In this document: piece after piece, positions 15,095 to 23,216 of the stretch | Layout: every line of letters starts with the position of its first letter | How positions within the stretch are numbered: the first letter of the stretch is position 1 | Source of the DNA: Conexibacter arvalis | GTDB lineage: Bacteria; Actinomycetota; Thermoleophilia; Solirubrobacterales; Solirubrobacteraceae | Assembly (NCBI RefSeq): GCF_014199525.1 | Contig: NZ_JACHNU010000001.1 | Coordinates: 1,652,182-1,716,181, forward strand | Direction of reading: 5' to 3' | Length of the DNA: 64,000 nt | Translations under genes and position numbers: made by a program | Notes under the pieces: generated by a model | Databases searched by the model: none | Seen by the model: only the letters and a program-made list of their open reading frames with translations | Told to the model about the DNA's origin: nothing

Positions 15095-15930
15095 CGCCGC
15101 GCACGATCACGGGGACCTTCGACGGCGCCCGCCCGGCGATGCTGGAGGCGAGCGAGCTGACGCCGCACCACGAGGCGCTCGCGCGCCTGCTCTGGCACGC
15201 CGAGCTGCAGGGCGAGCCGATCGAGCCGCTGAGCGGCACCTTCCCGGACCTGACGCTGTGGGACGCCTACCGGATACAGGCGATCGGGCGCGGCCTGCGC
15301 AGCGCCGAGGGGGAGGAGCTGCGCGGCTGGAAGGTCGGGCTCACCTCCCGCGCGATGCAGGAGATGATGAACGTCGACCAGCCCGACTCCGGCTACCTGC
15401 TCGAGTCGATGGTCGTCCACAGCGGCGCGCAGCTGCGCGCCTCGCGCTTCATCCAGCCGCGCGTCGAGGCCGAGATCGCCTTCCTGCTGAAGTCGCCGCT
15501 GGAGGGGCCGGGCGTCACCCGCGAGGAGGTGCTGGAGGCGACCCACGCCTTCGCGCCGGCGCTCGAGGTGATCGACAGCCGCATCACCGACTGGCGGATC
15601 GGGATCGTCGACACGGTCGCCGACAACGCCTCCTCGGGCATGTGCGTGATCGGCGACTGGGAGTCGGCCGAGGACATCCGCTCCGAGCAGATCGGCGTCA
15701 GCCTCGCGGTCGGCCCCGAGCTGGTCCGCGGCCGCGGCGACGCCGTCCTCGGCCACCCCGCCGAGCCGGTCGCGTGGCTGGCGCGGACGCTCGCCGAGCA
15801 GGGCCTGCGGCTGGAGCCGGGCGACATCGTGATGCCGGGCTCGGTCGCGCGCGCCGTGCCGATCGCCGCCGGCCAGACGGCCTACGCGACCTACGACCGC
15901 CTCGGCGAGGTGAGCGTCAGCCTTGTCTGA
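15091..15930 (+). CDS. 2-keto-4-pentenoate hydratase / oxalocrotonate decarboxylase family
   Basis: 279 residues. 'GWKVGLTSRAMQEMMNV', 'RVEAEIAFLL' (metal Glu pair) and 'VDTVADNASSGMCVIGDW' are typical of the FAH-superfamily MhpD/DmpE/DmpH proteins. In meta-cleavage catabolism they hydrate 2-hydroxypenta-2,4-dienoate to 4-hydroxy-2-oxopentanoate or decarboxylate oxalocrotonate. In this operon the reverse, dehydration of the aldol product, is also possible. It overlaps the aldolase stop by 4 bases and the next start by 8 bases. Hydratase and decarboxylase members cannot be separated by eye. Confidence 0.88.
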   Translation: MTPRTITGTFDGARPAMLEASELTPHHEALARLLWHAELQGEPIEPLSGTFPDLTLWDAYRIQAIGRGLRSAEGEELRGWKVGLTSRAMQEMMNVDQPDSGYLLESMVVHSGAQLRASRFIQPRVEAEIAFLLKSPLEGPGVTREEVLEATHAFAPALEVIDSRITDWRIGIVDTVADNASSGMCVIGDWESAEDIRSEQIGVSLAVGPELVRGRGDAVLGHPAEPVAWLARTLAEQGLRLEPGDIVMPGSVARAVPIAAGQTAYATYDRLGEVSVSLV

Positions 15931-16732
15931 GACCAGCGGCCGCTCAGGAGCCGAACGCGAGTTCCCGGCTGATCCCGCGGCACGGGCGCCGGCCGACGCG
16001 CCGCCCTACCAGGTCGACGCCTACCAGCGCACCTTCTCCGCGCGCGTCGTGCGCGCGGAGGGGACCGCCGTCCAGCTCGAGGGCAGCGCGCTCTACCCGG
16101 GCGGCGGCGGCCAGCCGGCCGACCACGGGACGCTGAGCGCGGGCGACCGCAGCTGGCGGGTCACCGGCGCCAAGCTGGCGCGCGACGACAGCGATCCCGC
16201 CTTCCCGGCGCCGGGGTGCTGGCATCTGCTCGACGGCGAGGCGCCCGAGGCGGGGACCGAGCTGGCCGGCGAGCTCGACTGGGAGCGCCGCTACGCGCTG
16301 ATGCGCACCCACACCGCGCTCCACGTCCTCTGCGCCGTCGTCTGGCGCGACTACGGGGCGAAGGTCACCGGTGCCAACATGGAGCCGCTGCGCGGGCGGA
16401 TGGACTTCGAGTTCGAGCACCTCTCGGGCGAGTTCGTGCGCGAGCTGGAGGAGAAGGTCAACGCCGAGGTCGCCGCCGCGCGTCCGACCCGCGTCGACTT
16501 CCTGCCGCGCGCCGAGGCCGACGCCGACCCCGAGCTGATCCGCAACAAGGTCAGCCTGCTGCCGCCGTCGATCACGGTCGTGCGCGTGGTGGGGATCGAA
16601 GGGCTGGACCTGCAGGCCGACGGCGGCACCCACGTCGCCAACACGAGCGAGGTCGGGACGATCTCGCTCCCGTCGTACAAGAGCAAGGGCAAGATCAACA
16701 AGCGAGTTGAACTCACGCTGACGGGAGGCTGA
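15923..16732 (+). CDS. AlaX-type trans-editing protein (AlaRS editing domain)
   Basis: 269 residues of the AlaRS second-additional/editing domain family. Gly-rich 'YPGGGGQPAD', the zinc motif 'HTALH', and 'ADGGTHVANTSEVG' (usually CGGTHxxxTxEIG, with Asp here at the usual Cys) are all visible. AlaX proteins hydrolyse wrongly charged aminoacyl-tRNA, classically Ser- or Gly-tRNA(Ala). It begins at a TTG (15923) that overlaps the hydratase stop by 8 bases; an N-terminal 30 residues are disordered. Its place directly before an IleRS gene in a biosynthetic-looking operon suggests it removes a toxic analogue from a tRNA, which is inference. Confidence 0.85.
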   Translation: MSETSGRSGAEREFPADPAARAPADAPPYQVDAYQRTFSARVVRAEGTAVQLEGSALYPGGGGQPADHGTLSAGDRSWRVTGAKLARDDSDPAFPAPGCWHLLDGEAPEAGTELAGELDWERRYALMRTHTALHVLCAVVWRDYGAKVTGANMEPLRGRMDFEFEHLSGEFVRELEEKVNAEVAAARPTRVDFLPRAEADADPELIRNKVSLLPPSITVVRVVGIEGLDLQADGGTHVANTSEVGTISLPSYKSKGKINKRVELTLTGG

Positions 16733-20048: not shown

Positions 20049-20097
20049 GAGGAGTGGCGTTCTGGGGGTCGATATCACCCCCAAGCCGCCACTCCTC
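20049..20097. repeat. nested inverted repeat (copy 2), downstream of ileS
   Basis: Outer 11-bp perfect arms GAGGAGTGGCG (20049-20059) and CGCCACTCCTC (20087-20097) enclose 'TTCT', an inner hairpin GGGGGT-CGATATC-ACCCCC (20064-20082) and 'AAGC'. The plan and the GTTCTGG hinge match the element at 9525-9573. It could serve as the ileS terminator. The rest of the 19954-20169 gap is a GC-rich stretch and an AT-richer promoter-like segment (GATCGATGTAGCATG at about 20144-20158) before the next gene. Confidence 0.7.
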
Positions 20098-20169
20098 GCG
20101 CCGCAGGAGGCGAAGTCAGCACGGACATGGCGTGGTGTAACACTGATCGATGTAGCATGTACATCAGTC

Positions 20170-22095
20170 ATGTTCGCCGCGATCGATGAACCCGCCGGCG
20201 GCGCCGCGATCGGCGAGGTGATCCTCGCCTCCTCCGCCGCGCTCACGCTGACCGTCGCCCTGCTCGTCCTCGGGCTCGGCCACCGTGCCGGCCGCGTCAA
20301 GCTGCTCGGCCGCGTCTCGGACTTCGCCGAGCGCCGCACGGGCCTGCCGGGCTGGGTCGGCTTTCCCGCCGCGATCGCCGCCGGCTCGCTGCTGTGCGCC
20401 GTGGTCGGCATGTACTGGGACATCGCGCTCCACATCGACGTGGGACGCGACGAGGGGCCGCTTGCCAACCCGGCCCACTACTTCATCCTGATCGGGCTGT
20501 TCGGCATCTTCACGGCGGGCTTCGTCGCGATGGTGCTGCCGTTCGGCAAGCCGAGCCGCTCGGCGGTCCGCCTCGGCGTCGAGTGGTACGCGCCGCTCGG
20601 CGGCCTGCTCGTCTGCTCGAGCGCCGCCTTCGCGCTGCTCGGCTTCCCGCTCGACGACGTCTGGCACCGGCTCTTCGGCCAGGACGTCACACTCTGGGGC
20701 CCGACGCACCTGATGCTGATCGGCGGCGCCTCGATGACGGTGCTCGGCCTCGCGGTGCTGCTCGTCGAGGGCCAGCGGGCCAAGGAGGCCGCCGCCGACG
20801 GCGCGGGCGGGCCGGGCGCCTCGGCTCCGGCGGGCACGGGCGGGACGCGCGCGGCCTCGGGACGACGCGGCGCGGTCGACGAGCCGGGCTGGGTCGGGCT
20901 GACCCGGCGCGTCGCGCTCTGCGGCGCCTTCCTGCTCGGCCTCTCGACCTTCCAGGCCGAGTTCGACTTCGGCGTCCCGCAGTTCCGCTTCGTCTTCCAG
21001 CCGCTGCTGATCATGCTCGCCGCCGGCGTCGGCCTCGTCGCCGTGCGCGTCTGGGCCGGGCGCGGCGCGGCGATCGGCGCGGTCCTCTTCTTCCTGCTGA
21101 TCCGCGGGCTGCTGGCGCTGCTCGTCGGCCCCGTGATCGGCGAGACGACGCCGCACTTCCCGCTCTACGTCGTGCCGGCGCTGATCGTCGAGGCGATCGC
21201 GCTGAAGCCCGGGATCGTGCGCAGGCCGTTCCGGTTCGGGCTGCTGACCGGCATCGGGATCGGCACGCTCGGGCTCGCGGCCGAGTGGGGCTGGACCCAC
21301 CTGTGGATGCCGATCCCGTGGCCGTCGACGCTGCTGCCGGAGGCGATCGTCTTCGGGCTGCCGACCGCGCTCGGCGCCGCCTTCGTCGGCGCCTGGATCG
21401 GCGACCGGCTGGCGCTCGGCGCCAAGGACCACGACCGGCGGCTCGACGTCGCCGCGCTGGCCGGCTCGCTCGCGATCTTCGCGCTGATCGGCGTCGCGCT
21501 CTACAAGCCGGCGGTCGAGGACGTCCGCGCGACGGTGACGCTCGCCGACGTCCAGGGCCCGCCGAACCGCGAGGTCGAGGCCGTCGTCAGGTTCGACCCG
21601 GTCGACGCCGCCGAGGGCAGCGAGTGGCTGACCGCGACCGCGTGGCAGGGCGACGGCTTCGTCGTCGACCGGCTCGAGCGGGTCGCGGACGGCGTCTACC
21701 GCACCACCCAGCCGATCCCCGTCCACGGCAACTGGAAGGCGCTGGTGCGGATGCAGCGCGGCAACACGCTCAGCGGCATCCCGATCTTCATGCCCAAGGA
21801 CCGTGCGATCCCGGCGCCCGAGGTGCCGGCGCCCGCGAGCTTCACGCGCACCTTCGAGGCCGACCACAGAATCCTCCAGCGCGAGCAGAAGGCGGCCGCG
21901 GGCTGGCTGTGGGCGGTCGCCTACACGGTCGTCGGCCTGATCGCGCTGTCGCTGCTGGCGCTGATGGCGTGGGCGCTGCGACGGCTGTCGACGGCCGCCG
22001 AGGGCACGCCGCCGTCGACGCCGTCGGCGCGGGCGACCGCTGCCCCGACACCGTCGCCGCCGCTGAGCGGCGCCGCGAGCGGGGCGGGCGCGTGA
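20170..22095 (+). CDS. large polytopic membrane protein with duplicated Asp/His motif
   Basis: 641 residues with about twelve membrane helices, an extracytoplasmic beta-rich domain (about 440-585, containing 'PIPVHGNWKALVRMQRG') and a final helix. A motif D-x3-H-x3-G-x-D-x(5-6)-P-x-H occurs twice with the same spacing: D84/H88/G92/D94/P101/H103 and D162/H166/G170/D172/P178/H180. This points to an internal duplication and a metal or haem site near the membrane surface. I do not recognise a characterised family. The stop overlaps the start of the hydrolase gene (GTGA), so the two are co-translated. Confidence 0.8.
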   Translation: MFAAIDEPAGGAAIGEVILASSAALTLTVALLVLGLGHRAGRVKLLGRVSDFAERRTGLPGWVGFPAAIAAGSLLCAVVGMYWDIALHIDVGRDEGPLANPAHYFILIGLFGIFTAGFVAMVLPFGKPSRSAVRLGVEWYAPLGGLLVCSSAAFALLGFPLDDVWHRLFGQDVTLWGPTHLMLIGGASMTVLGLAVLLVEGQRAKEAAADGAGGPGASAPAGTGGTRAASGRRGAVDEPGWVGLTRRVALCGAFLLGLSTFQAEFDFGVPQFRFVFQPLLIMLAAGVGLVAVRVWAGRGAAIGAVLFFLLIRGLLALLVGPVIGETTPHFPLYVVPALIVEAIALKPGIVRRPFRFGLLTGIGIGTLGLAAEWGWTHLWMPIPWPSTLLPEAIVFGLPTALGAAFVGAWIGDRLALGAKDHDRRLDVAALAGSLAIFALIGVALYKPAVEDVRATVTLADVQGPPNREVEAVVRFDPVDAAEGSEWLTATAWQGDGFVVDRLERVADGVYRTTQPIPVHGNWKALVRMQRGNTLSGIPIFMPKDRAIPAPEVPAPASFTRTFEADHRILQREQKAAAGWLWAVAYTVVGLIALSLLALMAWALRRLSTAAEGTPPSTPSARATAAPTPSPPLSGAASGAGA

Positions 22096-23216
22096 ACGAG
22101 TTGAAGGCTGCCGCGGTCCCTGGCCGCGAGCGGAGCGCCGGTCGCGCCGCGGCCGCGAGCGCCACGAGCGCTCGCAGCCGCGGCGGCGCGCGGCGCTGGG
22201 TGGAGGCCGGCGCGCTGCTCGGCGTCGGCGCGGCCGCCGCGGCGTGGGAGTCGGCGCGGCGCCGCGACCTGCGGCGGATCGAGGCCGACCCGGCCGGCGT
22301 CGCCCTCTTCGAGCGCCCGCGCGGCGAGGAGCGCGACGTCGTCGCCCCCGACGGGACGCGGCTGCGGGCCGAGCTGTTCGGCCCCGACGACGCGCCGCCG
22401 CTCGTCCTCGTCCACGGCTGGACCTGCGCGCGGCGGTTCTGGGCCGAGCAGCTGCACGCGCTCGCCGACCGCTACCGGATCGTCACGTTCGACCTGCGCG
22501 GCCACGGCGACAGCGAGGCGCCGGCCGGCGGCGACTTCTCGATCGACGCGCTCGCCGACGACCTGCAGGCGGTGCTCGACGCGACCGTCCCCGACGGGCG
22601 CCGCGCGCTGCTCGTCGGCCACTCGCTCGGCGCGATGTCGATCGTCGCCTGGGCCGGACGCTTCCCGGACGAGGTCGAGCGGCGGGCGGCCGGCGCGGCG
22701 CTGCTCAACACCGGCGTCGGCGACCTGATCGACCAGTCGCTGATCGTGAAGCTGCCGCGTGGGATGAGAGTGGCGAAGGCGGTCGTCGGCGGGATCTTCC
22801 TCAGCGCCAGCGGACCGTTGCCGCCGGCCTCGCCGATCAGCCTGCGGGCGGTCCGGTACGTCGCGCTGGCGCCGTCGGCGACGCCGGCGCAGATCGCCTT
22901 CTGCCAGGAGATGGTGCTCGCCTGCCGCCGCGACGTTCGCGCCGGCTGCGGCCGCACGCTGTCGCGGCTCGACCTCGCCGACGCGATCGCGTCGCTGACG
23001 GTGCCGACGACGGTGCTCGGCGGCGGCCGCGACCGTCTCACGCCGCCGCCGCACGTCGAGCGGATGGCAGCCGCGCTTCCCCGACTGGCCGAGCGGGTCG
23101 AGCTGCCCCGCTCGGGCCACATGGGTCCGATCGAGGACCCGCATGCAGTGAACGCCGCGCTCGAGCGGCTCGCCGTGACGGCAGGGGTCGCGCCCGCCGT
23201 CGCGGTCGTCTCGTAG
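22092..23216 (+). CDS. alpha/beta hydrolase
   Basis: 374 residues from a GTG at 22092. An Ala-rich N-terminal hydrophobic segment ('VEAGALLGVGAAAAAW') may anchor it to the membrane. The fold is clear: oxyanion 'LVLVHGWTCARRFW', 'VTFDLRGHGDSEAP', nucleophile elbow 'GHSLGAMS', a lid insertion, and catalytic His in 'SGHMGPIEDP'. The Asp is probably in 'VLGGGRDRLTPP'. Substrate unknown. It overlaps the preceding membrane-protein gene by 4 bases, suggesting the two proteins work together. A strong hairpin follows at 23234. Confidence 0.9.
   Translation: MNELKAAAVPGRERSAGRAAAASATSARSRGGARRWVEAGALLGVGAAAAAWESARRRDLRRIEADPAGVALFERPRGEERDVVAPDGTRLRAELFGPDDAPPLVLVHGWTCARRFWAEQLHALADRYRIVTFDLRGHGDSEAPAGGDFSIDALADDLQAVLDATVPDGRRALLVGHSLGAMSIVAWAGRFPDEVERRAAGAALLNTGVGDLIDQSLIVKLPRGMRVAKAVVGGIFLSASGPLPPASPISLRAVRYVALAPSATPAQIAFCQEMVLACRRDVRAGCGRTLSRLDLADAIASLTVPTTVLGGGRDRLTPPPHVERMAAALPRLAERVELPRSGHMGPIEDPHAVNAALERLAVTAGVAPAVAVVS

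Follow-up and report, generated by a model that had tools for sequence, protein, structure and literature searches.

A putative relative of copper membrane monooxygenases that combines PmoC-like and PmoA-like domains in one chain, with duplicated Asp/His sites and without CuB, in Conexibacter arvalis

The window analysed here, a stretch of 64,000 nucleotides of the Conexibacter arvalis genome (contig NZ_JACHNU010000001.1, positions 1,652,182 to 1,716,181), contains a gene encoding a 641-amino-acid membrane protein in which a motif of aspartate and histidine residues occurs twice. On balance, and with a confidence a little above even, we regard this protein as a single-chain relative of the PmoC-PmoA core of the copper membrane monooxygenases (CuMMOs) that lacks the CuB site and, by analogy with PmoC, is probably a copper oxygenase. 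CuMMOs include particulate methane monooxygenase, whose subunit genes follow the operon order pmoCAB, and ammonia monooxygenase. The catalytic site of methane monooxygenase has long been disputed between CuB in PmoB and the CuC and CuD sites in PmoC. A previous reading of the DNA letters (hereafter the sequence-only reading) had pointed out the duplicated motif and assigned the protein to no family, which holds for Pfam and NCBIfam but not in a wider sense, as the protein resembles PmoC and PmoA. Its closest relatives are other Conexibacter genes (73-75% identity). Structure predictions, both built from 80-row alignments, gave a predicted local distance difference test score (pLDDT) of 90.4 for the whole protein and 92.1 for residues 1-212 alone. 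The gene and its parts are as follows:

20170..22095, + strand: whole gene, PmoC-like domain, PmoA-like domain, then helix-beta domain-helix (open reading frame of 641 amino acids; predicted model; fold matches)
20170..20805, + strand: PmoC-like domain, residues 1-212 (pLDDT 92.1; VIA-align rows 1-5 PmoC/AmoC; HHalign E 0.0012)
20419..20478, + strand: repeat 1, residues 84-103, D84-x3-H88-x3-G92-R93-D94-x6-P101-x-H103 (invariance; register with PmoC)
20653..20709, + strand: repeat 2, residues 162-180, D162-x3-H166-x3-G170-x-D172-x5-P178-x-H180 (invariance; register with PmoC)
20872..21423, + strand: PmoA-like membrane domain, residues 235-418 (ten best fold rows PmoA/AmoA; sequence support weak)
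21436..21501, + strand: predicted membrane helix 5' of the beta domain, residues 423-444 (model)
21517..21855, + strand: predicted extracytoplasmic beta domain, residues 450-562 (model; loop charges; invariant columns)
21901..21996, + strand: predicted last membrane helix, residues 578-609 (model)

The twelve residues named by the sequence-only reading are found at the positions given there, the codon of D84 starting at 20419 and that of H180 ending at 20709. The two copies had been described as identically spaced, which is true of D-x3-H-x3-G-x-D but not of the remainder, where P stands 7 positions after the second D in copy 1 but 6 in the other copy. When the residues of the protein were shuffled 200,000 times, one copy of the pattern D...H...G.D.{4,7}P.H appeared in three cases and two copies in none; conservation is nevertheless the better test, because the pattern was chosen after having been seen. 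Relatives were collected in one genome scan with a pattern that matched 311 stretches, 300 of which encode relatives, the best 80 being retained. They occur in 37 of 296 sampled genomes of the phylum (about one in eight), that of C. arvalis included. The near alignment comprised 106 rows after merging of identical sequences (105 distinct sequences and the query), and a diverse alignment comprised 116 N-domains from deeply diverged actinobacterial subfamilies, some of them with the first two domains only; L010, a duplicate of L009, was removed from alignment A1.

In the near alignment, D84, H88, G92, R93, D94 and H103 of repeat 1 are identical in the 104 rows that reach them, as are D162, H166, G170, D172 and H180 of repeat 2 in 105 of 105. 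D84, H88, H103, D162, H166, G170 and H180 are each retained in all 116 diverse N-domains, followed by G92, D172 and P178 (115 each) and D94 (111, with E in four others). R93, a motif residue left out by the sequence-only reading, is kept in 115 of them. Eleven of the twelve residues are consequently invariant or nearly so, the exception being P101 (P in 75/104 near rows and 84/116 diverse N-domains). The poor conservation that would have argued against the motif is not found: the six D and H residues that correspond to ligands (D84, H88, H103, D162, H166, H180) are invariant at both depths. The motifs had also been placed at helix ends, and the predicted model agrees: in each repeat the first D and H close a helix and the last H lies near the beginning of the following one (helices 61-90 and 101-122, then 143-169 and 178-212). 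Ancestry by duplication is borne out by HHalign, in which the half around D84 matched the half around D162 with a probability of 95 and an E-value of 3.6e-8, the motifs being in register, for reversed controls of 0.65 and 0.36.

The ligand pattern of the repeats is that of the two copper sites of PmoC. According to a 2025 paper (PMC12576850), the ligands are Asp156, His160 and His173 for CuC and Asn227, His231 and His245 for CuD, with Arg165 and Phe177 close to them and some 6 Å between the two sites. Repeat 1 has its counterparts in Asp156, His160, Arg165, Asp166, Pro171 and His173, and repeat 2 in Asn227, His231, Glu237, Pro243 and His245. R93 and D94 stand at H88+5 and H88+6, as Arg165 and Asp166 do relative to His160; D172 and H180 stand at H166+6 and H166+14, as Glu237 and His245 do relative to His231. 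The CuC arrangement Asp-x3-His-x12-His is recognizable and in register in 116/116 N-domains, with a His-His spacing of 13-15 rather than 13: 94 rows have 15, 16 rows have 14 and five have 13, for 13 in 63 of 63 PmoC rows. The five rows are from distant subfamilies, one of which has DVSWHVAIGRESFWIPPH where PmoC has DGTWHQTIVRDTDFTPSH. For CuD (His-x13-His), H166 and H180 are present in 116/116, in register with His231 and His245, and their spacing of 14 is found in 115/116 N-domains and in all 57 of the 63 PmoC rows that show the pattern; in these counts the L219 row is without the pattern (its motif differs), and in six PmoC rows gaps or changes break the full CuD pattern. The double-motif pattern matched 57 of 7,919 other reading frames, all in loci fetched for CuMMO genes, and its strict form, with P required, 78 of 111 target frames; being derived from PmoC and the window family together, it indicates rarity and not independence.

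Fold and profile comparisons point in the same direction. The first five VIA-align rows of the N-domain are PmoC/AmoC (Z 10.0-10.9, root-mean-square deviation (rmsd) 3.9-4.2 over 172-177 residues), and several other PmoC/AmoC entries follow at Z 7.3-9.8. The alignment sets model residue 13 against PmoC residue 85; the same offset, 72, leads from D84 to Asp156, and the C-terminal alignment ends differ by 64, for the 65 that would take D162 to Asn227 and H180 to His245; these offsets rest on alignment end points rather than residue pairs. With HHalign, the broadened N-domain profile matched 63 PmoC sequences with a score of 29.8-30.3 and an E-value of 0.001, which is modest support, both copper sites being in register, and none of 150 shuffles in blocks of eight columns did as well (best 29.0, mean 17.8, standard deviation 3.0). 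This score became significant only once the distant subfamilies were added, and global mode returned nothing. Half 1 alone matched the CuC half of PmoC (probability 53, E 1.4e-4). Between PmoC's own two halves no repeat is recognizable in the sequence. Identity in the structural alignments is 10-14%, which is no objection, because known CuMMO lineages share about 8-21% according to a 2022 paper (PMC9038741). The sequence-only reading had proposed a pair of metal or haem ligands: its metal sites correspond to CuC and CuD, but nothing points to haem. No haem-protein fold leads the VIA-align rows of the whole model or the N-domain, an absence that is not proof, and haem binding was set aside for want of evidence.

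The middle domain, as modelled, resembles the next subunit. Rows 1-10 of the whole-model VIA-align are all PmoA/AmoA, mostly over residues 225-418 (Z 11.9-13.4, 170-190 residues aligned, rmsd 3.1-6.9), followed by an energy-coupling factor (ECF) transporter subunit at Z 10.5 and then by 6.8. Chance is made less likely by the fact that each of two adjacent domains, independently of the other, has a different subunit of one complex as its best match, and that their order is the C-A of the operon. This domain is present in nearly all members (115 sequences); no PmoA was found in viral contigs.

An external beta domain had also been proposed, and the predicted model contains one (residues 450-562); the loop charges place it and both D/H motifs outside the membrane, with the K/R-rich loops inside. 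W492, Q493, G494, P517, W522, K523, R527, D544, A546 and E572 are invariant in it and its surroundings, and no His, Cys or Met is, so a CuB-type site is lacking. The three-His CuB site of the B subunit is thus not represented in the protein. Its better fold rows include the copper protein CrdA (6.5), some hydrolase N-domains and, at 6.8, an entry for cytochrome cbb3; it gave no profile match to cupredoxin, and no PmoB chain is among the 50 whole-model VIA-align matches listed. The separate xmoC, xmoA and xmoB genes of CuMMOs are here replaced by one open reading frame. Membership of the CuMMOs in the strict sense was rejected, given the lack of CuB, the single gene, the lack of a Pfam match and the Asp in place of Asn227. 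AmoC was not found in the organism's own genome, nor AMO in four genomes having relatives of the protein.

A second set of unannotated actinobacterial genes, the DGWAH family (L217:886-1968 on the - strand, L219, L255-L272), encodes proteins of about 360-400 amino acids with duplicated D/H sites of the forms D-G-W-A-H ... P-W-H and D-x-x-W-H ... S-P-x-H. Of 246 actinobacterial genomes, 14 carry it, several in more than one copy. Judged by its profile, the family is homologous to the N-domain of the window family (HHalign probability 99.2, E 1.8e-19, with alignment at both sites), from which it differs by its shorter proteins and less regular site spacing; it too belongs to no Pfam family. Compared directly with PmoC it gave nothing (score 11.6).

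Gene neighbourhoods were counted in 60 of 111 loci, those flanked by 3.5 kb or more on each side, and the other 51 were omitted; earlier tables, based on a simple composition rule for gene calls, undercount, and the 60-locus count is the better one. A cupredoxin and a membrane protein of about 460 amino acids (MEM460) both lie within 3.5 kb in 37 of the 60 loci, and a MerR regulator is present in 34. The cupredoxin directly adjoins the gene (0-78 bp) in 37 of 38 matches, the remaining one being 9.4 kb away. All 20 aligned cupredoxins have a lipobox-type Cys and E-x-H-x-H ... E-x-H with three invariant His, and the domain proper has no invariant Cys (e.g. L028:7448-7963, - strand); its H-x-H and third His resemble the three-His layout of the CuB site of PmoB. 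MEM460 has no Pfam or NCBIfam match, and the name 'fenitrothion hydrolase', which it may bear in databases, could not be confirmed; its relatives are also carried by plasmids of Haloferax, Haladaptatus and Rhizobium. At other places in its genome, C. arvalis has one homologue of the cupredoxin and two of MEM460. A Mycolicibacterium vanbaalenii plasmid carries the gene under the annotation 'hypothetical protein', with CopC directly upstream and cytochrome oxidase genes near. Some members have short-chain dehydrogenase/reductase (SDR) or flavin monooxygenase-like genes beside them, and no dehydrogenase able to use an alcohol product is common to all loci compared. The sequence-only reading had considered the protein coupled to a hydrolase, whose gene overlaps the stop codon by four bases in the window, but the recurrent partners elsewhere are cupredoxin, MEM460 and MerR. 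The pairing was therefore discarded as a general feature and appears local to the window. Features around the gene and in related loci are:

22092..23216, + strand: alpha/beta hydrolase, a neighbour and not a conserved partner (PF00561, 8.1e-27; 4-base overlap with the stop codon)
20049..20097, + strand: strong hairpin between the upstream isoleucyl-tRNA synthetase-like open reading frame and the gene (-37.3 kcal/mol, z -4.8)
L018:2943-4349 and L024:6047-7444, both - strand: MEM460 examples, a gene found beside cupredoxin and the family gene in 37 loci
L202:4245-5369 and L202:4721-5356, - strand, and L201:4786-5919, + strand: two copies in genome G237, apparently broken by frameshifts, with N-domain and middle domain in different frames

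The hairpin is probably a transcription terminator or attenuator. Just upstream of the start codon lies a perfect inverted repeat, GATGTA-GCATG-TACATC (window 20148-20165), and TGTnACAT-like elements are similarly placed upstream of relatives (L002, L003, L004, L019, L022). These elements could represent a MerR-type operator, because several of them adjoin a divergent MerR gene; a search of 22 loci with one palindrome pattern found no shared operator in front of the gene. The open reading frame at 15923-16732, which precedes the ileS-like gene, may encode a stand-alone alanyl-tRNA editing (AlaX-type) protein.

Several results weigh against kinship with the CuMMOs. Pfam AmoC, AMO and Monooxygenase_B match none of 11 family proteins scanned, nor either of two DGWAH proteins. 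The third CuD ligand, Asn in PmoC, is Asp in 116/116 N-domains. HHalign assigns the N-domain match to PmoC a probability of 19; the near relatives by themselves (106 rows) scored 16.5, not above controls reaching 19.8, and the comparison of half 2 with PmoC's CuD half returned nothing (probability 0.09). The middle domain matched PmoA with E 0.017-0.021 and a score of 21.96, for 21.61 in the best shuffle, and this score was not counted as support because its register is unlike that of the fold. Neither the beta domain nor the neighbouring cupredoxin has a profile match to PmoB. As to structure, Foldseek returned no E-value below 0.045, with PmoC/PmoA rows at about 0.1 or worse, and no PmoC-like row among the 50 matches listed from a viral library; helical models may reach Z 13 in VIA-align by chance, so that values below about 13 call for caution, and the N-domain's 10.9 barely exceeds the 9.8 of a talin bundle. 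Finally, the window, like 21 of the 22 loci L002-L023 (L002-L017 and L019-L023), has neither cupredoxin nor MEM460 next to the gene.

The weak profile scores, the low Foldseek significance and Z-values close to those of unrelated bundles are what convergence would produce, that is, a helical membrane protein of common bundle fold, unrelated to PmoC, whose duplicated D/H site would hold Zn, Fe or Mn. We consider this improbable: six ligands together with R93, D94/D172 and P178 are in register with PmoC, the spacing of site 2 is identical, and two adjacent domains match, in order, two subunits of one complex. An intramembrane metal-dependent hydrolase acting on lipid or peptide through its D-x3-H sites, and coupled to the alpha/beta hydrolase that the overlapping downstream gene of the window encodes, is very improbable, since that gene is not a recurrent neighbour and the fold points to PmoC/PmoA.

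The most serious rival accepts both fold and copper sites and differs on function. The protein would be a copper carrier, sensor or loading protein at the outer face of the membrane, passing copper to the cupredoxin and copper oxidases. The known neighbours are indeed copper-related (the lipoprotein cupredoxin, the CopC and cytochrome oxidase genes of the plasmid, the MerR regulators), CrdA, found at Z 6.5 among the better fold rows of the beta domain, is a copper resistance protein, and an alcohol-using dehydrogenase shared by all loci is missing. We nonetheless hold it to be rather unlikely, given that the ligands match those of the enzyme, that a mere carrier would have no need of the PmoA-like domain retained in nearly all members, and that SDR or flavin monooxygenase-like genes accompany some of them.

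For the reading preferred here, in which PmoC-like and PmoA-like domains form one chain without CuB, the following mechanism can be proposed. Two duplicated helix-loop-helix units, each ending a membrane helix with D-x3-H and opening the next with His, would place two metal sites next to each other where four helices reach the extracytoplasmic side, as is the case for CuC and CuD in PmoC. Each would be Asp/His/His, where CuD of PmoC is Asn/His/His. By analogy with PmoC, copper is predicted at one or both sites, where O2 would be activated and a small or lipid-soluble substrate oxidised, the PmoA-like bundle forming the rest of the pocket. The beta domain would stand outside the membrane without copper ligands, and in many actinomycetes the adjacent lipoprotein cupredoxin may supply copper or electrons.

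More tentatively, and with doubts that outweigh our confidence, these proteins could be widespread actinobacterial single-chain copper oxygenases that share ancestry with PmoC-PmoA, have kept both PmoC sites through a still-visible duplication, and never had or have lost CuB; PmoC would then be one branch of a larger superfamily that includes the DGWAH family. If true, a natural CuB-less relative with the CuC/CuD ligand pattern may help settle where methane monooxygenase works, would provide natural evidence for the PmoC sites as ancestral catalytic centre and would suggest that they arose by duplication. Contained in one polypeptide, it would be a simpler object for the active-site question and for heterologous expression, and the superfamily would extend to about one in eight of the sampled actinobacterial genomes. 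Among papers listed by searches of a PubMed Central library, judged by title or abstract start, none concerned a fused or CuB-less CuMMO relative, which is weak evidence of absence as preprints lie outside that collection and subscription papers are few in it.

PmoC (PDB 7s4h chain C, 7s4m chain C) is among the closest known systems. Its two D/N-x3-H ... P-x-H sites follow the same order, each with D/E at H+6 and the first also with R at H+5, and these two chains are the best fold matches of the N-domain (172-176 residues, Z 10.8-10.9). The window protein differs from it in lacking a Pfam AmoC match, in its Asp for Asn227, in a site 1 mostly two residues longer, in matching from PmoC residue 85 on only and in its fusion to the next subunit. 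PmoA/AmoA (PDB 4phz chain B, 9leg chain A) is the best fold match of residues 225-418 and has the same place after the C subunit; the middle domain has about 180 residues instead of 240-270, and no sequence relation is established. The beta domain is extracytoplasmic and third in order, as is PmoB in pmoCAB, without the CuB histidines or a profile match. PmoB is laid out as beta-two helices-beta, the window protein as helix-beta-helix. The divergent CuMMO of Ca. Angelarchaeales is likewise a far-diverged lineage with the CuC triad retained but, according to PMC9038741, has separate genes, retains CuB and was reported with its D-site not observed. Hydrocarbon monooxygenase-type CuMMO operons of the same phylum (L112-L114, L195-L200) have true C, A and B genes with clear Pfam matches, and the window family is a gene set separate from them. 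Such operons are found in 3 of 396 actinobacterial genomes (G013, G028, G042), which form one family-level group, and all three also carry genes of the DGWAH family.

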